Source: Chiua virens (lineage: Eukaryota > Basidiomycota > Agaricomycetes > Boletales > Boletaceae). From it: a stretch of 64,000 nt of DNA. The notes under the pieces were generated by a model, which was not told where the DNA came from, did no database searches, and saw only the letters and a program-made list of their open reading frames with translations. Both the position numbers and the translations under genes were made by a program. Location: assembly GCA_019787685.1 (NCBI GenBank), contig JAHNUO010000042.1:1-64000 (forward strand), in the 5' to 3' direction. Shown piece by piece: positions 447-54,902 of the stretch (positions are counted from its first letter, which is position 1; the number at the start of each line of letters is the position of its first letter).

Positions 447-2773
447 ATGTTTTCCGGATTGCGTCGCGTACTGGCGCTGAGAGGTGAGTAAATGAAAAGT
501 CGAAAGGATGGTACTGACGAGAAGCAAGAGTCGAATGAGGATGGCACTGGGACCGGCAAAGGCAAGAGTGGCCAAAGTGAGGTGACCGAAGACGCGATGC
601 TGGCGAGGACAGGCTATCCAAACAGGGCTGGATCCACGGCGGAGGTGATCGAAATCGATGGCCAAAGTCACGTATATTCAGTCATGTTTACGGCCGATGG
701 GAAGCGCGTGCTGGCTTGTGGAGCGGAAGGAAAGATTCAATGCTGGGGGAGAGACGACGGGAAAGAAGTGATGAAACCAATGGACGCGAGACGTCAGGTC
801 TACAGCATTGCGGTGTCGCAGGACGGAAAATGGATTGTAAGCGGGGCGAGTGGAGGCGTTGCGAGTGTGTTTGATGCGGAGAGCGGAGAACTTGTGACCG
901 AGCTGATAGGACACAGAGGGTCAGTGCGCGCTGTGGACGTGTCGCTGGACGGGACAAGAATCGCGACGGGATCGGCTGACGGTACAGCACGTATCTGGTC
1001 GTTACCGAATGGCAATGAACTACTCGAACTGGAGCACGACGATTGGGTGAGAGTAGCAAAATTTTCGCTAAACGGGCTGCTGTTGGCGACTGCTACGCAG
1101 TCCGTGCGGATCTATGAATGCAATGGTGGTCGTCTCCTCGCCAATTTCAAGATCCATGTCACCTCGTTCTACAACCAGTCCGTCGCGTGGCATCACGACA
1201 GCACACACCTCTTCCTTGCATCATGGGATCATTACATCTACTGTATCGACGTATCGGCTAGGAACACACTCTCAAAGTGGCCCATTCACAGCGACGATTA
1301 TCCTTGCTGCATCGCTTTGGCAAGCGATGGTGCATACATCGCAACTTCTGTGGGACCGTTCGTGTCATTCTGGGATACAGTGACGCACGAACAGATCGGG
1401 TCTTCCACCAACCATACTGACGACGTCGACACCATAGTGCTTTCGACAAATCACGACATTATAACAGGTGTGGGCAGGACCATTATCATACGGAATCTAC
1501 GCGACATCCTTCCTGCTCACTACTGCGAGAACGTTCGTGTACTTTCCATATGATGTCATGACTGTCCTCATCACCACCCAAAAGACTGCGCGGAATCTCC
1601 ATGCAGACCTCATGGACCTTCAGTGTCGCTACAAGGTGCAGTCACGCAAGCTTCGCCAAATCGCCGCTCTGAAGGCTGAACTGGACCACCGAAAACGTTC
1701 AGCTACCATCAAAACGGGTAAACTAGCCGCTGTACGCCGACAGCTTGACCAGCTCCCTGACGTGTCCCGTGAGCTCGTCTCTGTGCGCAACGAGCTGAGA
1801 TGGTCCGAAGCTCAAATGCATAGTACCCATCAACAGTACAGCGACCAGCTTCGAGATATCACCTCGGCTCTCGCAAGCAGCCAACCCGATTTCCCTGCCT
1901 TTCATCAATGCATCACCAGCTCGGACACATCTATTGAAAAGGCAATAGTGCACACTCTCAGGTGCCTTAATACTGCCATTCAACAAACTTCAACATCCAT
2001 ATCCACCTATTTCATGCACCACGTCAAATCCCCCGATGCCCAAGAGCAGTCATCCGCTACACAACGTGTCTCCAACTCTCTCTCTGAATCTTTCGTGCAC
2101 CGCTTACTCACAATACCTCCCCACAGCCTCTCCTGGTACCTTCCAGTCGCACTGCAGGCAAACTTCACAGCTTCCTTGTACTTAGTCATTTCCTCGTGGA
2201 TGAGGGATGAAGGGACGAAGAGGCTGATAGGACATATGTACGACCGAGTGTGCAATTCAGGTAAGCTATCGATCTCAGCCACTGTCAACGGTTCGCTGAC
2301 CTTGACCGACAGCACTTCAGGCGTTCGCCGCTGGTTGGCGATCACTCACCAGTACCAATATTTCCGCCTCCACCAACAACTTCCATATCCTCGTGTCACA
2401 TGCCATGCAAGGTCTCTCTGACGTCGTCGTTGCTGCTGGTTGTGCCGCTTCTGCTGCAGACGCGCAAGCCAAATTGTCCCCCAAGTTTTGGCACGACATT
2501 GTTTCCATTCTCTCAGCCGCCGAGACACTCAGAGATTTAATCGGAGGGGCCCTCCCAGCTGATTTCAAAGTTGTTCTCGCCCATCCCGCACAGACATTCG
2601 ACAGAACCACGATGGTGGTGGATCAGGAAACAGGCTTGGGAATGGCAGTTAGAGGCAGGGTTCTTTGCACGACGCGTTTGGGTTTGGTCAAGGAAGTCGT
2701 CGGAGGGCAGCACAACACCGTGACACCAACGACGGTGGTCAAGGCAACGGTCGTTCTCCAGGAGAACAGGTAG
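447..2773 (+). CDS. WD40-repeat / coiled-coil protein, copy 1
   Basis: Four-exon model: 447-483, 529-1532, 1585-2260, 2313-2773, giving 725 residues with the frame closed. Exon 1 encodes only about 12 residues and ends at a GTGAGT donor; its intron has an ACTGAC branch-like site and ends CAAG. Residues about 50-345 form WD40 repeats (blades with GH...V.AVDVS.DG..IATGS.D.TARIWS signatures), a beta-propeller scaffold for protein contacts. After intron 2 comes a charged helical stretch with heptad-like pattern (about 350-430), probably a coiled coil, then a conserved C-terminal domain I do not recognise, containing PKFWHDI and TTRLGLVKEV blocks. No signal peptide or membrane segment is seen. If exon 1 is not used, an ATG at 492 reads into the same frame. 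It is the first of three tandem paralogues. Molecular function is unknown. Confidence 0.8.
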
Positions 2774-3751
2774 TGTGATGCGGTGTGTCGAGCCAAGAAT
2801 TCTTTGTCTGTCCGTTTTGAATCATCATTGTATTGCATCTCGACAGTCCTGCACTAGTGTACAAAACAAGTGAGCGAATTCCAAGACGTATTTGGGATGC
2901 TACGTTTACTCTTTCTCGGGCCGATTCGCTGCAGCCATGTCTCTTCACTGTTGCTCCAAGCGGTATCATTCATGCCTCTGCATTGCTCAAAGTCAGCCTC
3001 TGTTCGTTCGTCCCTAGTATGATCAAGTACAGAATGGAACTGCACCCCCACCGGCGGCCCTTCCCTCCATCTGGCCCCACCATGCAACCGACGTCGAGGA
3101 GCACAACTACCCTAGAAAGGCAATTTTTTTGACCAAGCTACTTGCGGACACCATGGTGGGTTAGTGATATGGTATCCACCAAGCCCTACAAAGCCCTCAA
3201 TGTGAATATTAAGTTAGTGACAGGCAGATGGCAAGTCAAACTAATCCAACTTACCTGTTCGTCTCCGAAAGGAGGGTTGCACCTTCTGCCATGTAGCACA
3301 TAGTACACAGGCTGTCGATAGTCAGTGTATATCTCTTGTCGCACAATGTACTTCATTTTCACAACACACTCAATGTTGGTCCAAATGCAGATCATCTACT
3401 TGAGTTCGTCGTCATCGCTCTGTGAATCATACTCTAAATGAATCGCTTGGTCGTTTTGGCATGGTTTTGCATTGCCGCATCCCTAGCCTTTCGGCGCACC
3501 TGAATGTCACCCTCAAGGATGAGACTGAGGAGGCAGTAAGTCATGGTCTTAAAAAAACTCTATGACGTCGCGTACCAAGTTTGGACCCTATGTTGTATCC
3601 CAACCAGTTTCGAGGAGAACCCTACGGCAAGCACGGCGACGGAAATAGAAAGGTGACCCAATATGAGAACAAGCGCTGAAATCATAGGAGACGACACGTG
3701 TGTGCCGTGAGGTAAAGGGTTGCTGTACCGCTCATCATACTTTCATCTGCA
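2774..3751. other. intergenic, duplicated 3' and 5' flanks
   Basis: The first 350 bp resemble the 3' flank of copy 2 (about 6083-6480), including a shared CTCAAAGTCAG block. The last 250 bp resemble the upstream DNA of the other WD40 copies. Open frames here are short and not conserved; no gene is called. Confidence 0.5.
3695..3700. promoter_or_regulatory. conserved CACGTG box upstream of WD40 copy 2
   Basis: Same palindromic E-box as before copies 1 and 3, here 57 bp before the homologous ATG at 3752. Function inferred only from conserved position. Confidence 0.35.
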
Positions 3752-6082
3752 ATGTTTTCCAGATTGCGTCGCGTACTGGCGCTGAGAGGTGAGTAAATGA
3801 AAAGTCAAAAGGATGGTACTGATGGGAAGCAAGAGTCGAATGAGGATGGCAACGAGACCGGCAAAGGCAAGCGAAAGTAAGAGTGGCCGAAGTGAGGTGA
3901 CCGAAGACGCGATGCTGACAAGGATCTATCCAACCAGGGCTGGATCCACGGCCAAAATCGATGGCCAAAGTCACATATATTCTGTCATGTTTACGGCCGA
4001 TGGGAAGCGCGCACTGGCTTGTGGAACAGAAGGAAAAATTCGATGTTGGGGGAGAGACGATGGGAAAGAAGTGATGAAGCCAATGGACGCGAGTGGTAAG
4101 GTCTACAGCATCGCGGTGTCGCAGGATGGGAAATGGATTGTGAGCGGGGGGCGTAAAGGCATTGTTCGGGTGTTTGATGCGGAGAGCGGAGAAATGAAGA
4201 CTAGGCTGGAAGGACACAAATGGGCAGTGAGAGCAGTCGACGTGTCGCTGGACGGGACAAGAATCGCGACAGGATCGGCTGACGACACAGCGCGGATCTG
4301 GTCGTTATCGAATGGCGACGAAGTGCTCAAACTGAAACACGACTTGGCAGTGAATACAGCAAAATTTTCGCCAAACGGACTGCTGTTGGCGACCGCCACA
4401 CAGTCGGTGCGGATCTATGAATGCAACGGTGGTCGTCTCCTCGCCAATTTCAACATCCATATCACCTCGTTCTACAACCAATCTGTCGCATGGCATCACG
4501 ACAGCACACATCTCTTCTTTGCATCATGGGATCATCACATCTACCATATCGACGTATCGACTGGGAACACACTCTCAAAGTGGCCCATTCACAGTGATGT
4601 TTATCCTGGCTGCATCGCTTTGGCAAGCGATAGCGCATACATCGCAGCTTCTGTGGGGCCGTTCGTGTCATTCTGGGATACAGTGACGCACGAACAGATC
4701 GGGTCTCCCATCAACCATGCTGACGACGTCGACACCATAGCGCTTTCGACAAATCACGACATTATAACAGGTGTGGGCAGGACCATCACCATACGGAATC
4801 TACGCGACATCCTTCCTGCTCACTACTGCGAGAATGTACGTGTACTTTCCATATGATGTCATGACTGTCCTCATCACCACCTAAAAGACTGCGCAGAATC
4901 TCCATGCAGACCTCATGGACCTTCAGTGTCGCTACAAAGCGCAGTCACGCAAGCTTCGCCAAATCGCCGCTCTCAAGGCTGAACTGGACCGCCGAAAACG
5001 TTCAGCTGCCATTAAAACGGGTAAACTAGCCGCTGTACGCCAACAGCTTGACCAGCTCCCTGACTTGTCCCGTGAGCTTGTCTCTGTGCGCAACGAGCTG
5101 AAATGGTCCAAAGCCAGAATGCACAGTACCCATCAACAGTACAATGACCAGCTCCGAGATGCCACCCCCGCCGTTTCAAGTACTAGCCGACTCGATTCAC
5201 CTACCATTTATCAATGCATCACCAGCTCGGACACATCCATCGAAAAGGCAATAGTGCGCACTCTCGAGGAGCTCAATATTGCCATTCAACGAACTTCAAC
5301 ATCCATATCCACCCGTTTCATCCGCCATGTCAAATCCCCCGATGCCGAAGAACATTCATCTGCCGTGCATCGTGTCTCCAACTCTCTTCCTGAATCGTTC
5401 GTGCACCGCTTACTCACAATGCCACCCCACAGCCTTCCCTGGTACCTCCCAGTCGCACTGCGGGCATACCTCACATCTTACACGTATTCGGTCATTTCCT
5501 CATGGACAAGGGACAAAGGAACGAGCAGGCTCGTAAGAAATATATTCAACCAAGTGCGCAATTCAGGTAAGCCGTCAACTTCAACCGCTACCAGTTTATT
5601 GACCTTCAAGCTGACTAACAGAACCTCAAACATTCGCCGCCGGTTGGCGATCTCTGGCCAGCACCAATATCCCCTCTTCCATGGAGGACGTTGATATCCC
5701 CGTGTCGCGTGCCATGCAAGGCCTCTCCGACGTCGTTGTCGCAGCTGGTTGTGCCGCTTCTGCCACAGATACGCAAGCAAATTTGTCCCCCAAGTTTTGG
5801 CATGACATCTGTTCCATTATCTCAGCCGCCGAGACACTCAGAGATTCAATTGGAGGCACCCTTTCGGCCGATTTCAAACTCATCCTCGCTCATCCCGCAC
5901 AGACATTCGACAGAATTACAATGATGGTCGATCACCAAACAGGTTTGGGAACAGCAGTTAGGGGCAAGGTTCTCTGCACGACGCGTTTGGGTTTGGTCAA
6001 GGAAGTCGTCGGAGGGCAGCACAACACCGTGACACCAACGACGGTGGTCAAGGCAGCGGTCGTTCTCCAGGAGAACAGATAG
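3752..6082 (+). CDS. WD40-repeat / coiled-coil protein, copy 2 (5' end frameshifted)
   Basis: Exons by homology: 3752-3788, about 3834-4835, 4888-5566, 5622-6082. The last three are open and closely match copy 1 in WD40 blades, coiled coil and C-terminal block; introns 4836-4887 and 5567-5621 have GTACGT and GTAAGC donors. The 5' part is odd. Relative to copies 1 and 3 there is an extra 10-nt block near 3870-3880 (CGAAAGTAAG), which breaks the frame between mini-exon 1 and the propeller. Translation would have to start at an internal ATG, for example near 3813 in the propeller frame or at the conserved Met near 3911. It may thus be an N-terminally altered gene or a young pseudogene. Confidence 0.7.
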
Positions 6083-8162
6083 TGTGATGCGGTGTGTCAA
6101 GCCAAGAATTCTCTGTCTGTCTGTTTGGGCCGATTCAATCGTTACTATATCCCTTCAGTCCTGCTTCTAACAATGCCATTCCTACCTTTGTATTTTTCGT
6201 CGCGCATCCATTCCAGTGACCACTTTGGCAATTACATGTTCAAACGCAGGCTGCCGTTATTACCAGGCAGCGACGATCCTGACCAACGCAATGTCGCGAG
6301 CGTACCCTCCATGCCACTAGTTAATGAAATAATGGACCATGAAACGGATTTCTCAAAGTCAGTCTCTGTTCGTTTGTCCCCTAGTAGCTTAGTCAAGTAC
6401 AGAATGAAGCTACACGTCTACTGGCGGTCCTTGTCTCCATTTGGGATAATCTGGCCAACCCACTATGCAAGCTCCCATTTTGAAAGACGTGCTTCATTCG
6501 ATTCTCTCAACGGCTAGAAGCTTGCAATAGATCGAGCAAACCTGTTTTGGATCAGTTAGAGCTGCTGGTGCACTACCTCGGCTCTTGTTGACCGCTGGAC
6601 TGATCGGGCCATATCCCGCTCGTATTCCTCCAAAGTCTGCATGCCGACGAACAAGTTTCCCGAAGACGTTTATGCTAGAAATCAAAAGCGATCTCGCACA
6701 TACTGTGCAGAGTAGCAGTTGATATCTGATAACGACTCGCTGGGGGAGAGTACCTTTTGTTTCTCGGTCCTCGATCGGTGATACATTCGAGTTGACAACA
6801 AACGAAGGATCACACACTCTGGCGTGGGCAGGGAAACTAAGTGAATATTGTAATGACACGGTTACCACTAGTTACTTTGCCTTTACATATTTGATTGACA
6901 TTGCTTGCATTACCTCGAAATCCGCGACTGAGCACCACTGGCATGAAATACGTTCGGGATGACGCTGACTGAGTTGAGCTGGTGACCACACTAGTGTCAT
7001 GTGTCATATGCACAATGATATGATGACCGCTCCGAGCCATGTATTCCCGGAGACAGTCTAACGCTTCTCGTTTGGTTTGACGGATCACAGGCATTAATTG
7101 CTAATATCCCATTGCGCGATACATGCATCCTTTTGAGCACGGGATACTGTAACGGCGACGTACACCAAGGAAAGGTCTCCGACTAGTTGAATCGACGGAA
7201 TTCAAGGTCAGTTCTGAATAACAATCCAACGCCAGGAATGTTGCCGTGGAAAGCGAGGCGCGATGAGGGTAGATAAATAACCAAAGCGAGAAGATAATGG
7301 AACAAAACGTCCTACCAAATCGATAGCGTAACGGCAAGCCCACAAGGAATGGACTGGTGTTCCACCTTCCCAGGAACATCCTTCACGATATCTGATATCT
7401 GATGGGTGCGACGCCAACCTCAGTGAGGTCGAACATTGTATACGACGACGGATGTCTTGATGGTGCCATTCATGAGATCACTTTAAGTAATGTCCAAGGA
7501 TATTGCGAAACCATCCACACAAGATGGAGGCATACGGGGACGACAGCTCCTGATTTGAGTTGCGGGCATGTTGGGGAACGAACAACAGGATTACACGAGA
7601 ACCGGAGAGAGTAGGGCAAGGAAGAGGGGCGGCATGAACAAGAAAGATAATGCTTGCAAATGAGACCAGCTGTGAAGCGGTTAGCGTCTCACGACATGTA
7701 TGGTATGAGAAGACCGAAGGCATATACTGACGCGACTGAGAAAGATTTATACATGGATCAACCTTGCAAGGAGATAATCGAATGTAGCGACGCGGGGGAG
7801 AAATCGGACATCGATACTGAAAGCAAGTCGGAAAACTTGGAGACGGGCAATGATGACGAATGAATGAGAATCTGACATTGAGCAAAGATTCCAGGGGCGG
7901 GACAAGGATGTGGTTGAGGAGGCAGTGAGGTCATCGTACGAGACCTTTGGGAGAAATATGACAGTTGCGTACCGAGTTTGGACCTACATTGCGTTCTAAC
8001 CAATGTCGAGGAGAACCCTAGGGGCGGTAAGCACAGCGACGGGGATAGAATGGTAGACCGATATGAGAAGAAGCGCCAAAGCCACAGGGAGAAGGAGACA
8101 CGTGTGTCGTGAGGCAAAGGATTGCTGTAGCACTCGCTCTTAGTGTGGTACTTTGATCTGCT
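6083..8162. other. intergenic region between WD40 copies 2 and 3
   Basis: Bases 6083-6480 repeat the 3' flank of copy 1 and 7895-8162 repeat the WD40 promoter region. Between them (6500-7890) are only unconvincing open frames: a minus-strand frame of 124 codons at 6494-6868 and a charged plus-strand frame at 7654-7863. I recognise no domain in either. Confidence 0.4.
8099..8104. promoter_or_regulatory. conserved CACGTG box upstream of WD40 copy 3
   Basis: Third occurrence of the palindromic E-box, 64 bp before the proposed ATG at 8163. The flanking bases (GAGACACGTGTG) are also shared with copy 1. Confidence 0.35.
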
Positions 8163-10547
8163 ATGTTTTTCAGATTGCGTCGGATCACTCGTGTACTAAC
8201 GCTGAGAGGTGAGTAAATGGAAAAGATACTCGAAAGGACGGTACTGACCAGAAGCAAGAATCGGATGAGATTGACAGTGGATCCAACAAGGGAAAGCAAA
8301 AGGAAGAGCGGCCAAAGCAAGATGGCCAAGGTGAGGTGAACGAAGGCATGTTACTAATGCGAACCTATCCAAACAGGGCTGCCAATGTCACCGCGAAGGT
8401 GATCGAAATTGATGGCCTAGATCTGATACGGTCGGTCGTGTTTACGGCCGACGGTAAGCACGTGTTGGGTGGTGGAGACCACAAAGGAATTCGATGTTGG
8501 AGGGTGGAAGATGGGAATGAAGCGAGGAAGCCCAGCCTGCTGGACGGGGGGGATTGGATCAACGACATCGCGGTGTCGCAAGATGGACAGTGGATTGTGA
8601 GCGGGGCGAATTTGGGCTTTTCTCGGGTGTTTGATGCGGAGAGTGGAGAAATCACGACCGAACTGAAAGGACACACAAGCGCAGTGAATGCCGTCGACAT
8701 GTCGCTGGACGGAACAAAAATTGCGACAGGATCGGGTGACAGGACAGCGCGTATCTGGTCGCTCCCGGGCGGCGACAAACTGCTCAAGCTGGAACACGAC
8801 TCGCCAGTGTATGCGGTGAAATTTTCGCCAAACGGACAAAAGTTGGCGACCGGAACGTACCGCTCTGTGTGGATCTTTGAATGCGACAGTGGCCGTCTCC
8901 TCACCAATTTCGAGATTCCAGTCAATTCATACGAGAACCAATCCGTCGCGTGGCATCACAACAACAAGCACCTCTTCGTCGCATCCACTGATCACCACAT
9001 TCACCATCTCGACGCGTCGACTGGTAACACGCTCTCGACATGGTGCATTCACGGCGAGTATCCTCGCTGCATCGCCTTGGCAAGCGATAGCGCATACATC
9101 GCGACTTCTGCAGGTTCATTCGTGTCATTCTGGGATGTAGTCACACATGAACAGATTGGGTCTCCCATCGGACATGCAAACGGCGTCTCCTCCATGGTAA
9201 TATCGACCAATCATGACATAGCGACGAGCGCGGGCACCACCATCACCATACAGAACTTACACAACATTCTTCCCGCCCACTACTGCGACAATGTAAGTGT
9301 ACCTCTCTGTATGATGCATGGCTGTCCTCATTCGTAGCCAAAGACCGCCCGGAACCTCCAAGCTGATCTCATGGACCTGCGGCGTCACTACTACAAGATG
9401 CGGTCGCGCAGGTTGGCGAACGTCTGCCAGATTGCTGCTCTCAATGCTCAACTAGACCGCCGAAAACGTTTAGTTGGCATCAAAACGGGTGAACTAGCCG
9501 CTGTATGCCAACAACTTGACCAGCTCCCTGACGTATCCCACGAGCTCGTCTCCGCGCACAACGAACTGAGATGGTCCGAAGCCCGAATGCACAGTACCCA
9601 TAAACAGTACAGCAACCAGCTCCGAGATATCACCTCGGCTCTCGCTCGCAGCCAACCCGATTTCCCTCCCATTCACCAGTGCATCACCGATTCGGGCACG
9701 TCCGTCGAAAAGACAACAGTGCGCACTCTTGAGGAGCTCAATATTGCCATTCAACGAACTTCAACATCCATATCCACCCATTTCATCCGCCATGTCAAAT
9801 CTCCCGACGCCGAAGAACATTCATCCGTCGCGCAACGCGTCTCCAAATCTCTTCCTGAATTGTTCGTGCACCGCTTACTCACAATGCCACCCCACAGCCT
9901 TCCTTGGTACCTCCCAGTCGCACTGCGGGCATACCTCACATCCTACACGTATTCGATCATTTCCTCGTGGACGAGGGACGAAGGAACGAGCAGGCTCGTA
10001 AGAAATATATTCAACCAAGCGCGCAATTCAGGTAAGCCATCGACTTCGGCCGCTATCACTTTGCTGACCTTCAAGTTGACTAACAGAACCTCAAACATTC
10101 GCCGCTGGTTGGCGATCTCTGACCAGCACCAACATCCCCGCCTCCACCGAGAACTCCGATATCCTCGTGTCACATGCGATGAAAGGCCTCTCCGATGTCG
10201 TTGTCGCAGCCGGTTGCGCCGCTTCTGCTGTAGATACGCAAGCCAAACTGTCCCCCAAATTTTGGCATGACATTTCTTCCATTCTCTCAGCCGCCGAGAC
10301 ACTCAGAGATTCAATTGGAGGGGCCCTCCCAGCCGATTTCAAAGTCGTTCTCGCTCATCCCGCACAGACGTTCGACAGAACCAGAATGGCGGTCGATCAG
10401 CAAACAGGCTTAGGAACCGCAGCTAGGGGCAAGATTCTTTGCACGACGCGTTTGGGTTTGATCAAGGAAGTCGTCGGAGGGCAGAACAATACCTCGACGG
10501 CAACGACGGTTGTCAAGGCAGCGGTCGTTCTCCAGGAGTACATGTAG
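8163..10547 (+). CDS. WD40-repeat / coiled-coil protein, copy 3
   Basis: Four-exon model: 8163-8208, 8259-9292, 9344-10031, 10087-10547, giving 742 residues with the frame closed. This copy argues for the mini-exon. The ATG that follows the GTGAGTAA motif leads quickly to a stop, whereas splicing 8209-8258 joins mini-exon 1 (MFFRLRR...) in frame to the acidic linker and WD40 blades, as in copy 1. The blades include a GH-starting repeat with DVSLDG-like and ARIWS-like motifs. The coiled coil and the C-terminal PKFWHDI / TTRLGLIKEV domain are retained. The 9293 intron could also end at 9337 (TAG), adding two residues. This copy is the most divergent of the three. Function unknown; a scaffold role is inferred from the propeller. 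Confidence 0.8.
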
Positions 10548-10894
10548 GATGATGCGGCGTGTCGGGCCAGAGACAGGGATTCTTTGTCCGCCCACATTAA
10601 ATCGCTGTTACATTCCTATCTTCACAGACCCGTAGAATACAGAACGAGTGAATGATACGTTGACTCCTCGCGCTGATCCGCGGCCGTGTTCTTTGTGAAT
10701 TACTACTAGAGTCAATTGAATGGGATGACGTGAGCAAGGTTCAAATTCAAACTTCAAAGCTTCAAACGTTCGAGATCGTTTGAGGGCCCGGGTGTTACCG
10801 TCGATCCACCACCACAGAGCTTGAAAGGTAAGACGCTCCGCACCGTGACATGGGTCTTATATATAAGTTCTGAACGTTCAGGGACTTCAGGCCA
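10548..10894. other. intergenic; TATATATAA at 10858-10866
   Basis: Spacer between WD40 copy 3 and the glycosylase gene. A TATA-like element sits only 29 bp before the glycosylase ATG, which is unusually close. No coding signal seen. Confidence 0.4.
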
Positions 10895-50004: not shown

Positions 50005-53000
50005 TCACTTAGTGACATTTATAGCTAATATAGTTTCAAAAGTTGTTCATCATGACCATAAGGGCAAATGACTTACAAATAAGATTTTTAGAAATCATGT
50101 ACAAAAGGAGCTCTGTCATTTTGTTTCCATCCTCAAGGTCATATTGAAGAATAAGCTCAGAGACTGCCTTTTTGACTTTGTGCATGGCTTCAGATGATTC
50201 ATAAAGCTGGGTTGCTGCCATGATTGGGTCTTGAACACCTTGCTGGTGTAAAAAGAAAGAGTGTTCCAGGATAATGGCAATCTCTACAAATATTAATAGT
50301 GGCAGTTACTAAATTTCACATGCAGAAAACTAACCAATGCCTAAGTGAAGTGCTGTGTGCCATGCAGTACTGTTGTCCAAAGAAGACTAAATCATGGAAT
50401 AAAATATTGGACAGCCTGGCATTATGAAATTATTGTACTCACAATGGATGTGCATTCTCTTGCCAGTGTGTGTTGAACAGAAATAGAGGGCTTGTAATAT
50501 AATAAATTAATTGAAAAAAATTAGGTTATGAGACTAAAATGGTTGAACATACACTAGAAGCCTGCAATATCTATGATGTTGATGTTATTATTTGCATTGC
50601 AACAATTCAACACATTACAAACCTGCTATAAAACAGAAGTCAAATAAAGTGAAAATAAAAGTGAAAATACTCATACCTGCTAATGAATTGAAATAAATAG
50701 GGGATTGATGTATTTGAAAATTAAAGTGCACATAAACACTCACATCCTATAGAATGTTAAAATAATCAATGGCATGGAATGGAGTGGGATACATACAAGC
50801 TACGATAAACATTATAAAGGATGTCATGACAAGTAGCACAACTTAGCATCCTTCTAGAAGCCCATTCACAATCAGAGCACTTACTTTCTATGAATGGCAG
50901 GACAGGGGCAAGGACAGAGAGGCATGGATCAGCATCCTTCTGGAAGCCCATTCACAATCAAAGCACTTACTTCCTATGAATGACAGGACAGGGGCATGGA
51001 CAGAGGGGCGGGCATGGATCAGCATCCTTCTGGAAGCCCATTCACAATCAGAGCACTTACTTCCTATGAATGGCAGGACAGGGGCAAGGACAGAGGGGCA
51101 TGGATGAGCATCCTTCTGGAAGCCCATTCACAATCAGAGCACTTACAAACTATGAATGGCAGGACAAGGGCAAGGACAGAGGAGCATGGATCACCATCCT
51201 TCTAGAAGCCCATTCACAATCAGAGCACTTACCACCTATGAATGGCAGGACAGGGACAAGGACAGAGAGGCATAGGTCAGCATCCTTCTGGAAGCCCATT
51301 CACAGTCAGAGCACTTACTTTCTATGAATGGCAGGACAGGGGCAAGGACAGAGGGGCATGGATCACCATCCTTCTAGAAGCCCATCCACAATCAGAGCAC
51401 TTACACACTATGAATGGAAGGACAGGAACAAGGACAGAGGGGCATGGATCAGCATTCTTCTAGAAGCCCATTCACATTCAGAGCACCTACAACCTATGAA
51501 TGACAGGACAGGGGCAAGGACAGAGGGGCATGGATCAGTATCCTTCTGGAAGCCCATTCACAATCAGAGCACTTACTGCCTATGAATGGCAGGACAGGGG
51601 CATGGACAGAGGGGCATGGATTAGCATCCTTCTAGAAGCCCATTCACAATCAAAGTACTTACTCGCTATGAATGGCAGGACAGGGGCATGGACAGAGGGG
51701 CATGGATCAGCATCCTTCTAGAAGGCCATTCACAATCAGAACACTTACTGCCTATGAATGGCAGGACAGGGGCAAGGACAGAGGTGCATAGATCAACATT
51801 CTTCTGGAAGCCCATTCACAATCAGAGCACTTACTTCCTATGAATGGCAGGACAGGGGCAATGACACAGAGGCATGGATTAGCATCCTTCTGGAAGCCCA
51901 TTCACAATCAGAGCACTTACTTTCTATGAATGGCAGGACAAGGGCATGGACAGAGGGGCATGGATCAGCATCCTTCTAGAAGCCTATTCACAATCAGAGC
52001 ACTTACTTCCTATGAATGACAGGACAGGGGCAAGGACAGAGGGGCATGGATTAGCATCCTTCTGGAAGCCCATTCACAATCAAAGCACTTACTTTCTATG
52101 AATGACAGGACAGGGGCAAGGACAGAGGGGCATGGATCAGCATCCTTCTGGAAGCCCATTCACAATCAGAGCACTTACAAACTATGAATGGCAGGACAGG
52201 GGCAAGGACAGAGAGGCATGGATCAGCATCCTTCTGGAAGGCCATTCACAATCAGAGCACTTACTTTCTATGAATGGCAGGATAGGGGCATGGACAGGGG
52301 GGCATGGATCAGCATCCTTCTAGAAGGCCATTCACAATCAGAGCACTTACTTTCTATGAATGGAAGGACAGGGGCAAGGACAGAGAGGCATGGATCAGCA
52401 TCCTTCTGGAAGCCCATTCACAATCAGAGCACTTACTCCCTATGAATGGCAGGACAGGGGCAAGGACAGAGGGGCATGGATCAGCATCCTTCTGGAAGCC
52501 CATTCACAATCAGAGCACTTACATACTATGAATGGCAGGACAGGGGCAAGAACAGAGGGGCATGGATCAGCATCCTTCTGGAAGCCCATTCACAATCAGA
52601 GCACTTACTCCCTATGAATGGCAGGACAGGGGCAAGGACAGAGGGGCATGGATCAGCATCCTTCTGGAAGCCCATTCACAATCAGAGCACTTACTTTCTA
52701 TGAATGGCAGGACAGGGGCAAGGACAGAGGGGCATGGATCAGCATCCTTCTGGAAGCCCATTCACAATCAGAGCACTTACTTTCTATGAATGGCAGGACA
52801 GGGGCAAGGACAGAGGGGCATGGATCAGCATCCTTCTGGAAGCCCATTCACAATCAGAGCACTTACTTTCTATGAATGGCAGGACAGGGGCAAGGACAGA
52901 GGGGCATGGATCAGCATCCTTCTGGAAGCCCATTCACAATCAGAGCACTTACTTTCTATGAATGGCAGGACAGGGGCAAGGACAGAGGGGCATGGATCAG

Positions 53001-54902
53001 CATCCTTCTGGAAGCCCATTCACAATCAGAGCACTTACTTGCTATGAATGGCAGGACAGGGGCAAGGACAGAGGGGCATGGATCAGCATCCTTCTGGAAG
53101 CCCATTCACAATCAGAGCACTTACATACTATGAATGGCAGGACAGGGGCAAGGACAGAGGGGCATGGATCAGCATCCTTCTGGAAGCCCATTCACAATCA
53201 GAGCACTTACTTGCTATGAATGGCAGGACAGGGGCATGGATAAGCATCTTTCTGGAAACTCATTTTGCAATCATGAGAATGTCTTACCTTTCATGAATAG
53301 GACAAGCAGTTCTTTTATCATAGATCTCATTTGCACTACATAGAAACTCACACACCTCAACATGTGGAAACCATGACCCAATTGCTTTCACCAATATCTG
53401 CTGTGCAGAATCTGCCAGTGGTTGCTTACTCTCATGTATATCCTGAATAAGAGGTATCAGGACCCTATTAATAAATTAATAAATGTACCCATAGTCCATA
53501 AAATCCATATAAATTACCTTCTAAAAGCAAACTCAATGCAAAGCATCATGTTGGTGTGTTGTGTAGTCACAAGCAGCATCTGCAATGCTTCTTCATCTAA
53601 GGCCCCCACAGTTCTTTTCAAGAGAAGTTTACACCCCTCATTTGACTTGTGCAGTTCTTTGTATATTTAAATCAGTTTGACCATAAGAGACATGTATACA
53701 TACATACCTCTCAACTCCACATATGCATTTGGTGGATACATCATCTTTTGCACACTCTCCCATGCAGGATTCACTTTCAGCATTCTCTCAGCATTCTGCC
53801 ATCCAATCACAATCCTTTCATCTCGGGAAAGCTTTTCTTCCTCAGGTCCCAAGGCTGCCATGCCTCGTATCAGAAGTGCATCACATTTTGTGAATACAAG
53901 TATCACTGGCACTGCAAATAGTATGAGAAAAAAAGACATCATACATGAGGAGAACTTACCACTCCCAGTGTCACATTCACTGAAAAACCTTTCCTCTGCA
54001 GCCAAGACAGACCGGTGGTACTGGTCCATTGGAATACAGTACCTATTCAGTGACATGTCATTGTTAGTGTGGCATAAATGCTGCTATCTCTCATTACCAG
54101 ATAACATGGATTCGCTTCTTGAGGTGTGTGGTTTTTGCACGTTCAGAGACAAACTCCTTCATCTGTTCAAATTCTTCTATACTTCCAGCTTCAAAGCCCT
54201 GCGAGTCATGAAAAATAAAATTTGGGTTGCTTCGAAAGACCAATTCGTTCTTGATATGATGCATTCCACACTTGAGACATGTTAGAAAAATGTTACTGGC
54301 AAGGACTTCGCAGTAACCATTTGACTCACGTCTCGGGATTCCTGGATCTGTGCTAGATCAACCTGATGGCAGACTATCAACACACCCGCCATCATAGACA
54401 TCTCATCCAAGCATACCTCATTCCCATCTCCATCATGGATCTCTGGATCTTCCACAGAGTTGCATATTTGCTTAAGTATCGTAGTCTTCCCAGCGTTCGC
54501 CCGGCCAATGATAAGAATTCTGAAGCGCCCGAATTTCTCTCTGATACCATCCATCTGCATAACAGGTTCTACGTATGATTCTTCAGGGGATTCAGCGGAA
54601 GTTCCTGCGAGAGGTTCTGTGGGTGGCTCTGCAAGAGACTCTGTGAAAGGTTCTGCGAGAGGTTCCGCGGATGATTCTTCAGGGAATTCGGCGGAGGTTC
54701 CTGCGAGAGGCTCTGCGAGAGACCCAGTGAAACGTTCTGCGAGAGGTTCCGCAGATGCTTCTTCAAGGAATTCGACGGAAGTTCCTGCGAGAGGTTCTGC
54801 GAGAGGTTCTGTGGGTGGCTCTGCGAGAGATTCTGCGGAAGGTCTTGTGGGAGCCTTGGAGCGAAAGCACGGGAAACAAGCGCGAGTTATGAACCTTTTC
54901 AT
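50005..54902 (-). CDS. P-loop GTPase with an array of 3-nt exons
   Basis: A 44-exon minus-strand model. Large exons in transcript order: 54902-54417, 54362-54330, 54270-54098, 54042-53960, 53911-53708, 53656-53518, 53464-53288. Then 28 exons of 3 nt (53213-50885), four more of 3 nt (50799-50797, 50746-50744, 50679-50677, 50625-50623), and 50561-50555, 50490-50443, 50386-50335, 50283-50077, 50024-50005. Exons total 1725 nt: 574 residues with no internal stop. The N-terminus (22-113) is a degenerate AEPLAEP-type repeat. The G domain has G1 GRANAGKT (133-140), a D-x-x-G-like DSQG (195-198) and G4 TKCD (266-269), as in basidiomycete G-domain proteins, so GTP binding is likely. Residues 432-464, from the 3-nt exons, include 13 lysines; the helical tail contains AATQLYESSEAMHKVKK. 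Role unknown. Confidence 0.75.
50800..53287 (-). repeat. tandem array of near-identical introns separated by 3-nt exons
   Basis: Between 50885 and 53213 lie 27 head-to-tail units of 86 bp (one of 90). Read on the minus strand, each is a complete intron: donor GTAAGT (GTAGGT once, after the triplet at 51491), a CTGAT/CTAAT-like branch site, a pyrimidine-rich tract, and acceptor CATTCATAG. Then come three variable bases and the next donor. Triplets in transcript order with plus-strand position: 53211 CAA; 53125 TAT; 53039 CAA; 52953, 52867, 52781, 52695 all AAA; 52609 GGA; 52523 TAT; 52437 GGA; 52351 AAA; 52265 AAA; 52179 TTT; 52093 AAA; 52007 GAA; 51921 AAA; 51835 GAA; 51749 GCA; 51663 CGA; 51577 GCA; 51491 GTT; 51405 TGT; 51319 AAA; 51233 GTG; 51147 TTT; 51061 GAA; 50971 GAA; 50885 AAA. 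Flanking introns 53214-53287 and 50800-50884 are partial relatives. Confidence 0.9.
54564..54839 (-). repeat. coding minisatellite, AEPLAEP-type repeat
   Basis: Inside the first exon of the GTPase gene. Degenerate 15-bp-based repeats encode runs such as AEPLAEP and larger blocks with AGTSAEFPEES. The larger block recurs about three times. It likely forms a flexible acidic linker before the G domain and is a candidate for length variation between strains. Confidence 0.7.

Follow-up and report, generated by a model that had tools for sequence, protein, structure and literature searches.

A predicted run of single-codon exons between near-identical introns in a GTPase gene family of the bolete Chiua virens

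Can a protein be encoded through dozens of consecutive exons of three nucleotides each? The question is raised by a gene of the bolete Chiua virens (NCBI GenBank assembly GCA_019787685.1, 48.3 Mb), which lies in the stretch of 64,000 nucleotides analyzed here (positions 1 to 64,000 of the forward strand of contig JAHNUO010000042.1, our contig C42), hereafter called the window. On the minus strand, 28 triplets running from 53213-53211 to 50887-50885 are split by 27 tandem introns, all 83 nt long except for one of 87 nt, exactly as reported in a preliminary description made from the letters alone. The introns end in TCATAG throughout and begin with GTAAGT, but for one GTAGGT (after 51491), and no stop codon is found among the 28 triplets; Tandem Repeats Finder resolves this array into 27.8 copies of an 86-bp unit with 92% matches. 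We give a probability of about 0.72 to the reading that these triplets belong to 32 single-codon exons which would be spliced one by one, thereby adding a hypervariable peptide to a GTPase between its G domain and a predicted C-terminal helical part.

The gene model was built from splice strings and the conservation of paralogs, and its 42 introns are all of the GT-AG type. Its features, all on the minus strand, are as follows.

50036..54902, minus strand: whole predicted gene of a G-domain protein, 43 exons, 562 codons
54417..54902, minus strand: exon 1, with the start codon, acidic/proline-rich repeats and the P-loop GRANAGKTT
53356..54362, minus strand: exons 2-7 with their introns, placed by homologues and paralogs; exon 7 (53464-53356) ends ...GSWFPHVE in phase 0
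53214..53355, minus strand: intron 7, 142 nt, GTGTGT...TCATAG, holding an apparent decayed array unit at 53297-53282 (TTCATGAAAGGTAAGA)
50885..53213, minus strand: the array, 28 exons of one codon each (QYQKKKKGYGKKFKEKEARAVCKVFEEK) alternating with 27 near-identical introns, placed by splice strings
50797..50799, minus strand: single-codon exon CTT (Leu), after an 85-nt intron, placed by aligned loci
50744..50746, minus strand: single-codon exon GAT (Asp), kept in 16 of 16 aligned loci
50677..50679, minus strand: single-codon exon CAG (Gln), placed by aligned loci
50623..50625, minus strand: single-codon exon CAG (Gln), placed by aligned loci
50553..50570, minus strand: exon 40, 18 nt, ILQASS, phase 0
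50443..50490, minus strand: exon 41, 48 nt, PSISVQHTLARECTSI
50335..50386, minus strand: exon 42, 52 nt, SSLDNSTAWHTALHLGI
50036..50283, minus strand: exon 43, ..IAIILEHSFFLHQQGVQDPIMAATQLYESSEAM.. to the stop, resembling the C-terminus of P0121 and P0009, two proteins of related fungi

The assignment of consecutive 3-nt exons to a GTPase gene, already made in the preliminary description, is borne out by this model, in which the triplets are in frame, each of the 27 introns has its donor and acceptor, and a Pfam scan of a 369-residue exon set finds MMR_HSR1 (PF01926; 26.2 bits against a cut-off of 21.9) at residues 44-172. It was the only family above cut-off in that scan, with neither NACHT/NB-ARC nor WD40 reaching it. 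The count of 28 proposed earlier holds for the array, but the run itself is longer, for four additional 3-nt exons (L-D-Q-Q) follow on the 3' side and bring it to 32. The first of these encodes Leu, Phe or Ile in 15 of the 16 aligned loci (it is missing in L011), and the exons downstream of the array are conserved among these loci.

The donor GAG|GTGTGT at 53355 leaves exon 7 in phase 0, after WFPHVE, and the stop is then reached in phase 0 at 562 codons; in this gene model the triplets are whole codons. The preliminary description had instead ended the preceding exon at 53288 in phase 2 and closed the gene at 575 codons, neither of which survives the comparison of loci. The frame is broken ahead of 53288 in 10 of the 17 loci that have that stretch (L010, L011, L012, L014, L015 and L020-L024), L017 and L018 have GC at the proposed donor position, and the site at 53297-53282 (TTCATGAAAGGTAAGA) resembles a decayed TTCATAG-AAA-GTAAGT unit, with AAAG|GTAAGA at 53291-53282. 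Intron 7 may represent two fused array units, the decayed one sitting at the leading edge of the array. At the 3' end of the model an extra intron is possible at 50076. In exon 1, tandem repeats (window 54564-54839) encode SAEPLAEP-like repeats, the numbers of which differ in other C. virens members.

The window array is one of many. We read 28 loci of its family, namely the window and 27 other stretches, and 27 of them carry arrays of 7-71 triplets, L030 being without one. The exon preceding the array has 53 matches in the genome, two of them in one locus, and a family of about 50 predicted loci is shown at the sequence level. The string CATAG-N3-GTAAGT occurs at 1,613 sites in the whole genome vs 45 for the reversed control pattern, whereas spacings of two (22 vs 29) and four nucleotides (11 vs 32) both fall below their controls. 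Of the 1,613 sites, 729 lie in the 28 loci, where none is antisense; placement of the remainder is known for the first 100 listed, which include some isolated sites (not read). A more degenerate scan of the 28 loci with [CT]AG-N(L)-GTRRGY returned 885 sites for L=3, at most six for each other L from 0 to 12, and none for L=3 on the antisense strand. The 83-nt intron has at least 1,189 matches in the genome and, among the matches listed, which are the best ones, its copies sit at eight loci with arrays, all from a single family. No match emerged when viral and prokaryotic contigs were scanned for the pattern. Several oddities accompany these arrays: L030 has a first 3-nt exon-like site at 3000-3300, L029 contains one 5-nt and one 2-nt exon-like gap amid its 3-nt exons (3680-3775), and four CTT triplets at 88-bp steps lie outside the loci read (G000:C1:3497617-3498094).

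Translation of the triplets would be expected to leave traces in their codon content. From the triplet counts that follow, and from those on codon strings, diversity, order, linkage and branch motifs, L018 was left out as a duplicate of L017. Only 3 of 817 triplets are stops vs 62.6 expected (range 45-79 when the bases were shuffled 500 times, each within its own array and codon position). Stops formed across neighbouring triplets, counted for neighbours no more than 100 nt apart, number 3 and 54 in the two shifted frames vs 2.4 and 52.1 when whole triplets are reordered; stop avoidance is thus limited to the triplets' own frame. Moreover, 796 of the 817 triplets (97%) end in A or T, vs 57% of third bases in exons 1-7 of the window gene, and among the 21 exceptions, 20 of which end in G, 13 are TGG, the tryptophan codon that has no synonym. 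From this pattern we infer that the last exon base is probably constrained by splicing or mutation and overruled where tryptophan is needed. Such a pattern is to be expected if phase-0 codons are translated. Across all arrays a given amino acid is nearly always written with the same codon (GGA, CTT, TAT, CGA, GAA, CAA, TTT); GGT and CTA/TTA are rare vs GGA and CTT, which might serve to keep cryptic splice sites from arising.

Since the regular expression used to pick units demands both donor and acceptor, conservation of these is not independent evidence of splicing, but that of a branch-like motif is. The scan did not require CTRAY, the fungal branch motif, and yet this is present in 669 of 772 array introns, gaps above 110 nt being excluded from intron analyses (there are 19, and most of them contain a unit narrowly missed by the scan). 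In 225 introns from 5 of the 27 arrays, picked for their divergence, CTRAY lies at positions 26-60 in 193 vs 14% by shuffle; the mean position is 90% conserved, with T40 and A42 of the CTGAT motif at 1.00. The lengths of these introns range from 64 to 91 nt and 91 of the 225 differ from 83 by a non-multiple of three, the exons remaining constant at 3 nt. The array introns therefore look functional, as judged from their sequence.

Variation is concentrated in the triplets. Diversity was compared in the 23 arrays that had 12 or more equal units (L028, L031 and L035 had too few), and amounts to 0.39-0.79 at codon positions vs 0.000-0.181 in introns, that is 2.8- to 686-fold higher in 22 arrays; the introns of L024 are without variation. 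In that locus 27 codons of eight kinds lie between 26 identical introns, and in L025 the 32 introns are almost identical. Contigs C41 and C42 are taken as probable haplotypes because they are collinear at 96-98% identity over the gene and 98% some 45 kb off; their arrays have 18 and 28 codons, respectively, and the similarity of the two codon strings is at chance (z 0.0). Likewise, the 1.4 kb preceding the array is 99.3% identical between L010 and L012, and the strings of the two match at chance (z 1.0), the sole exception among the 25 closest pairs being L022/L024, which partly share a string (z 3.8). L017 and L018, 99.6% identical over 10 kb, have all 48 triplets in common. L025-L027 all start with GGT and contain TGG (Trp), and L032-L034 all start with AGA and end TTT-GAT, so that in both sets of loci the edge codons are conserved and the inner ones not.

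Within arrays the codons follow one another at random (lags 1-8, |z|<1); L028, L031 and L035 were left out of the tests of order, linkage and codon strings. Adjacent identical codons number 144 vs 135.4 expected (z 0.8), which gives no sign of a 3-bp target duplication. Similarity between introns declines with distance in 7 of the 25 arrays tested and not in 18, and intermediate-frequency intron variants common to scattered units (L010, L021) suggest exchange within arrays. A few duplicated blocks are seen in L010. Growth solely by tandem duplication was rejected on the lack of autocorrelation at lags 1-8 and of any excess of repeated codon words. In the window array (53210-50885, minus strand) the nine leading units have almost invariant introns, with one variant among nine, and the introns on the 3' side have 1-7 differences each, a polarity of age (rho 0.73). 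A general polarity of the kind known from CRISPR arrays, with young units at the 5' end, was rejected because it does not extend across the 27 arrays: it is positive with p<0.05 in the window, L009, L017 and its duplicate L018, L034 and the 5-intron L035, and negative with p<0.05 in L012 and L026.

Proteins of related fungi allow a comparison with the predicted peptide. Six of them (P0009, P0020, P0021, P0112, P0117 and P0121) are encoded on contigs of 1,094-1,848 nt with little room for introns, which we infer to be spliced RNA. From the WFPH motif to the LEHS-like motif these proteins have 63-81 residues, and the window model has 76 residues with the single-codon exons and 44 without them, whereas 9 of the 12 genome-annotated relatives with both motifs have 23-41. 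The strict motifs missed seven proteins that were measured later with a looser motif, giving 72, 59 and 75 residues for P0127, P0130 and P0134 on short contigs and 42, 52, 41 and 32 for the Pisolithus genome models P0135, P0138, P0163 and P0165. As far as WFPNTK, P0097 from a 1,695-nt contig matches the model P0096 of Pisolithus tinctorius at 353 of 354 residues; beyond this motif it has 44 residues absent from P0096. The sequences can be lined up as WFPHTK-EKELLWLLGGLEEELLLERKRDRERNQLMN-NLDET in P0121, WFPHSQ-ERFEVFREFVFEFA-NLDRA in P0009 and WFPHVE-QYQKKKKGYGKKFKEKEARAVCKVFEEK-LDQQ in the window gene, where K-L-D-Q-Q falls in single-codon exons at the place of NLDET/NLDRA. In seven of ten hand-chosen peptide stretches of relatives, entropy is below that of any window of the protein's own residues 1-280. 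A search with the C-terminal region retrieved, besides the query, only P0121. The seven C. virens annotated proteins that were read (P0001-P0007) all end at or before the array.

Several observations weigh against the single-codon reading. In C. virens it derives from DNA sequence, and the putative spliced state of the relatives' contigs was deduced from their size. The three in-triplet stops are all TGA and occur in 2 of 26 arrays, L031 and L034, which may be dead copies. Phases 0 and 2 could not be told apart by amino-acid composition (cosine 0.74 and 0.75). Among the 12 genome-annotated models there are three with long stretches (57, 73 and 82 residues), two of them apparently by reading through into an intron, and 3 of the 10 peptide stretches (P0020, P0021 and P0121, the windows of the last including the stretch itself) are not lower in entropy. 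Finally, recombination should leave repeated codon words and linkage between codons and introns, but the former are not in excess (z 0.1-0.9) and only 5 of 46 linkage tests fall below 0.05. Because neither trace is clearly seen, the diversification step is the weakest part of the proposal.

The mechanism that we propose has the following steps. Splicing by intron definition, followed by translation, would occur in C. virens, each of the 32 consecutive 3-nt exons adding one whole codon, so that the predicted spliced string reads GAG, then CAATATCAAAAAAAAAAAAGGATATGGA..., then CTTGATCAGCAG and ATATTGCAG. As every exon is one codon, 86-bp units could be gained, lost or exchanged in any number without breaking the frame. 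Recombination among units and sister genes would homogenize the introns, while selection for varied residues would keep the codons different. In an expanded GTPase family, the resulting peptide could serve as a variable surface for binding, or as a variable sensor, possibly in self/non-self recognition.

The explanation that best survives besides this one, though we regard it as unlikely, is a directed diversification, in which a dedicated process alters the 3-nt exons or rebuilds the arrays, or else copies only the introns, with excised intron RNA as one conceivable source. It would account for the eight kinds of codon between the 26 identical introns of L024 and for the almost identical introns of L025, for codon strings that are unlike at nearly identical flanks (L010/L012) and between haplotypes, and for the missing codon-intron linkage in most arrays. 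An enzyme or template was, however, neither found nor sought, the string partly shared by L022 and L024 does not fit, and strong selection together with recombination could yield the same pattern.

Two further accounts appear improbable to about the same degree. According to the first, a burst of introners, or mobile intron copies, was inserted at each codon boundary of an old ordinary exon. The similarity of introns irrespective of distance in 18 of 25 arrays agrees with such a burst, as do the random order of codons, mostly unlinked to intron type, and the similar codon diversity found with identical (L024, L025) and diverged introns (L017, L023). Yet insertion has no reason to occur at every third base and in one phase only, the A/T endings of 97% of the codons are unlike those of the other exons of the gene, and the greater likeness of close introns in 7 of 25 arrays and the shared variants in L010 and L021 point to exchange. 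The version with 3-bp target duplication was rejected, as identical neighbouring codons are at chance.

According to the second, the array is a minisatellite within one long intron, spliced from the donor at 53355 to an acceptor beyond the last unit, and no triplet ever becomes an exon. Its tandem structure with 86-bp period, the annotated C. virens models that end at or before it and the difficulty of defining a very small exon all speak for this view. It gives no reason, however, for stop avoidance within triplets, for exons fixed at 3 nt beside introns that change in length, for a branch-like motif in diverged units or for variation mainly in the triplets, and a peptide is present at this place in the relatives' short contigs. 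An unspliced satellite was rejected on the exactness of the 3-nt spacing, the avoidance of stops and the contrast of codon with intron diversity.

The phase-2 model of the preliminary description, with codons straddling the triplets, is very improbable: its frame is open in the window and meets three across-triplet stops in all arrays, but this low number is what the triplets by themselves would give, the downstream exons reach the stop in phase 0, and phase 2 could hardly encode eight residues (G, R, W, P, A, S, T and C), which make up 3% vs 30% in the relatives' peptides. Together with the frame breaks and the GC donors of L017/L018, these results led us to reject it. An assembly artefact, to which tandem repeats of 2-6 kb are prone, can practically be dismissed, for arrays occur at 27 loci with differing lengths and codons, the contigs of L017 and L018 agree in all 48 triplets, and nearly stop-free codon strings are not to be expected from an artefact.

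The architecture with single-codon exons can be compared with known systems. Micro-exon genes (MEGs) have exons of 6-36 nt. Those of Schistosoma mansoni, in the part of the account available to us, likewise combine many consecutive tiny exons with variable proteins and expanded families (PMC4015677), but without the one-codon exons, near-identical tandem introns, hypervariable codons and conserved GTPase host seen here. The window model shares with MEGs a run of consecutive frame-preserving tiny exons, 32 in number, all of 3 nt and in phase 0; these hold 96 of 1,689 coding nucleotides, whereas micro-exons may make up to 75% of the coding sequence in MEGs. Exons of 3 nt exist and are spliced, as the accessible parts of the reports on Drosophila homothorax (PMC7392893) and RPS24 (PMC12686416) indicate, and two occur in lipS of the fungus Dactylellina haptotyla (PMC5639578); in these excerpts they number one or two per gene and are not variable, unlike the dozens of consecutive ones described here. 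Introners or introner-like elements recur within a genome as nearly the same intron in many of its genes, fungi included (PMC9860276, PMC4457414, both as excerpted), and they insert at many separate places, in contrast to tandem copies at a fixed 3-nt spacing in one gene family with no visible 3-bp target duplication. Near-identical introns in many genes are also a property of our family, given the at least 1,189 intron matches and the arrays at 27 of 28 loci.

The WD40 repeat of het-d and het-e measures 42 residues. These NLR genes of Podospora, so far as the source was accessible, have tandem repeats kept at very high identity by concerted evolution with few hypervariable sites, and act in recognition with allelic combinations of repeats (PMC12222747); there the repeat itself is coding, whereas here the repeat is the intron and each unit holds one coding codon. 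The arrays thus display the near-identical repeats with few hypervariable codons of the HNWD type, but its NACHT/NB-ARC and WD40 domains do not appear in the Pfam scan of the 369-residue exon set, MMR_HSR1 alone being above cut-off. In SNHG14 the exons are longer and non-coding. Unlike the window gene it is a snoRNA host, its introns carrying SNORD115 and SNORD116; according to the portion available of its description, there are runs of 48 and 29 consecutive introns in which the same snoRNA recurs, one copy per intron (PMC11608373). Within what these partial sources cover, the combination of a conserved intron repeat with one-codon variable exons, as read from our sequences, appears in none of the systems compared, each of which shares one trait. 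No description of an array of 3-nt exons was recognized in the CC-licensed part of PMC, which is not proof of absence, and a paper of 2024 states, in the part accessible, that functional microexons are undescribed in filamentous fungi (PMC11121469).

Elsewhere in the window, on the plus strand (1697-10569), the stretch 5000-6200 is copied at 1697-2817 (84%) and 9468-10569 (87%), and C41 has copies that correspond to these.

If the single-codon reading is correct, gene architecture would reach a new lower limit, with dozens of consecutive 3-nt exons, and it could be tested on this gene if intron definition is by itself enough for splicing. The usual roles would be reversed, the intron being the conserved repeat and the exon the hypervariable part, and a new route to protein variation would be available in which recombination cannot shift the frame. 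A bolder extension, which we advance tentatively and with more doubt than belief, is that some 1,600 one-codon exons form a genome-wide set of frame-proof codon cassettes on the GTPase family, by which a protein would be varied one residue at a time, an active process renewing the codons and not the introns, so that the peptides of the two haplotypes are unrelated. Such a cassette system, if true, would be a eukaryotic counterpart of the complementarity-determining regions of antibodies or of diversity-generating retroelements, in which optional exon skipping would multiply the variants. Standard annotation seems to miss the arrays, considering that the seven C. virens models and 9 of the 12 genome models of relatives are short there, and hypervariable regions of mushroom GTPases may therefore be absent from databases.

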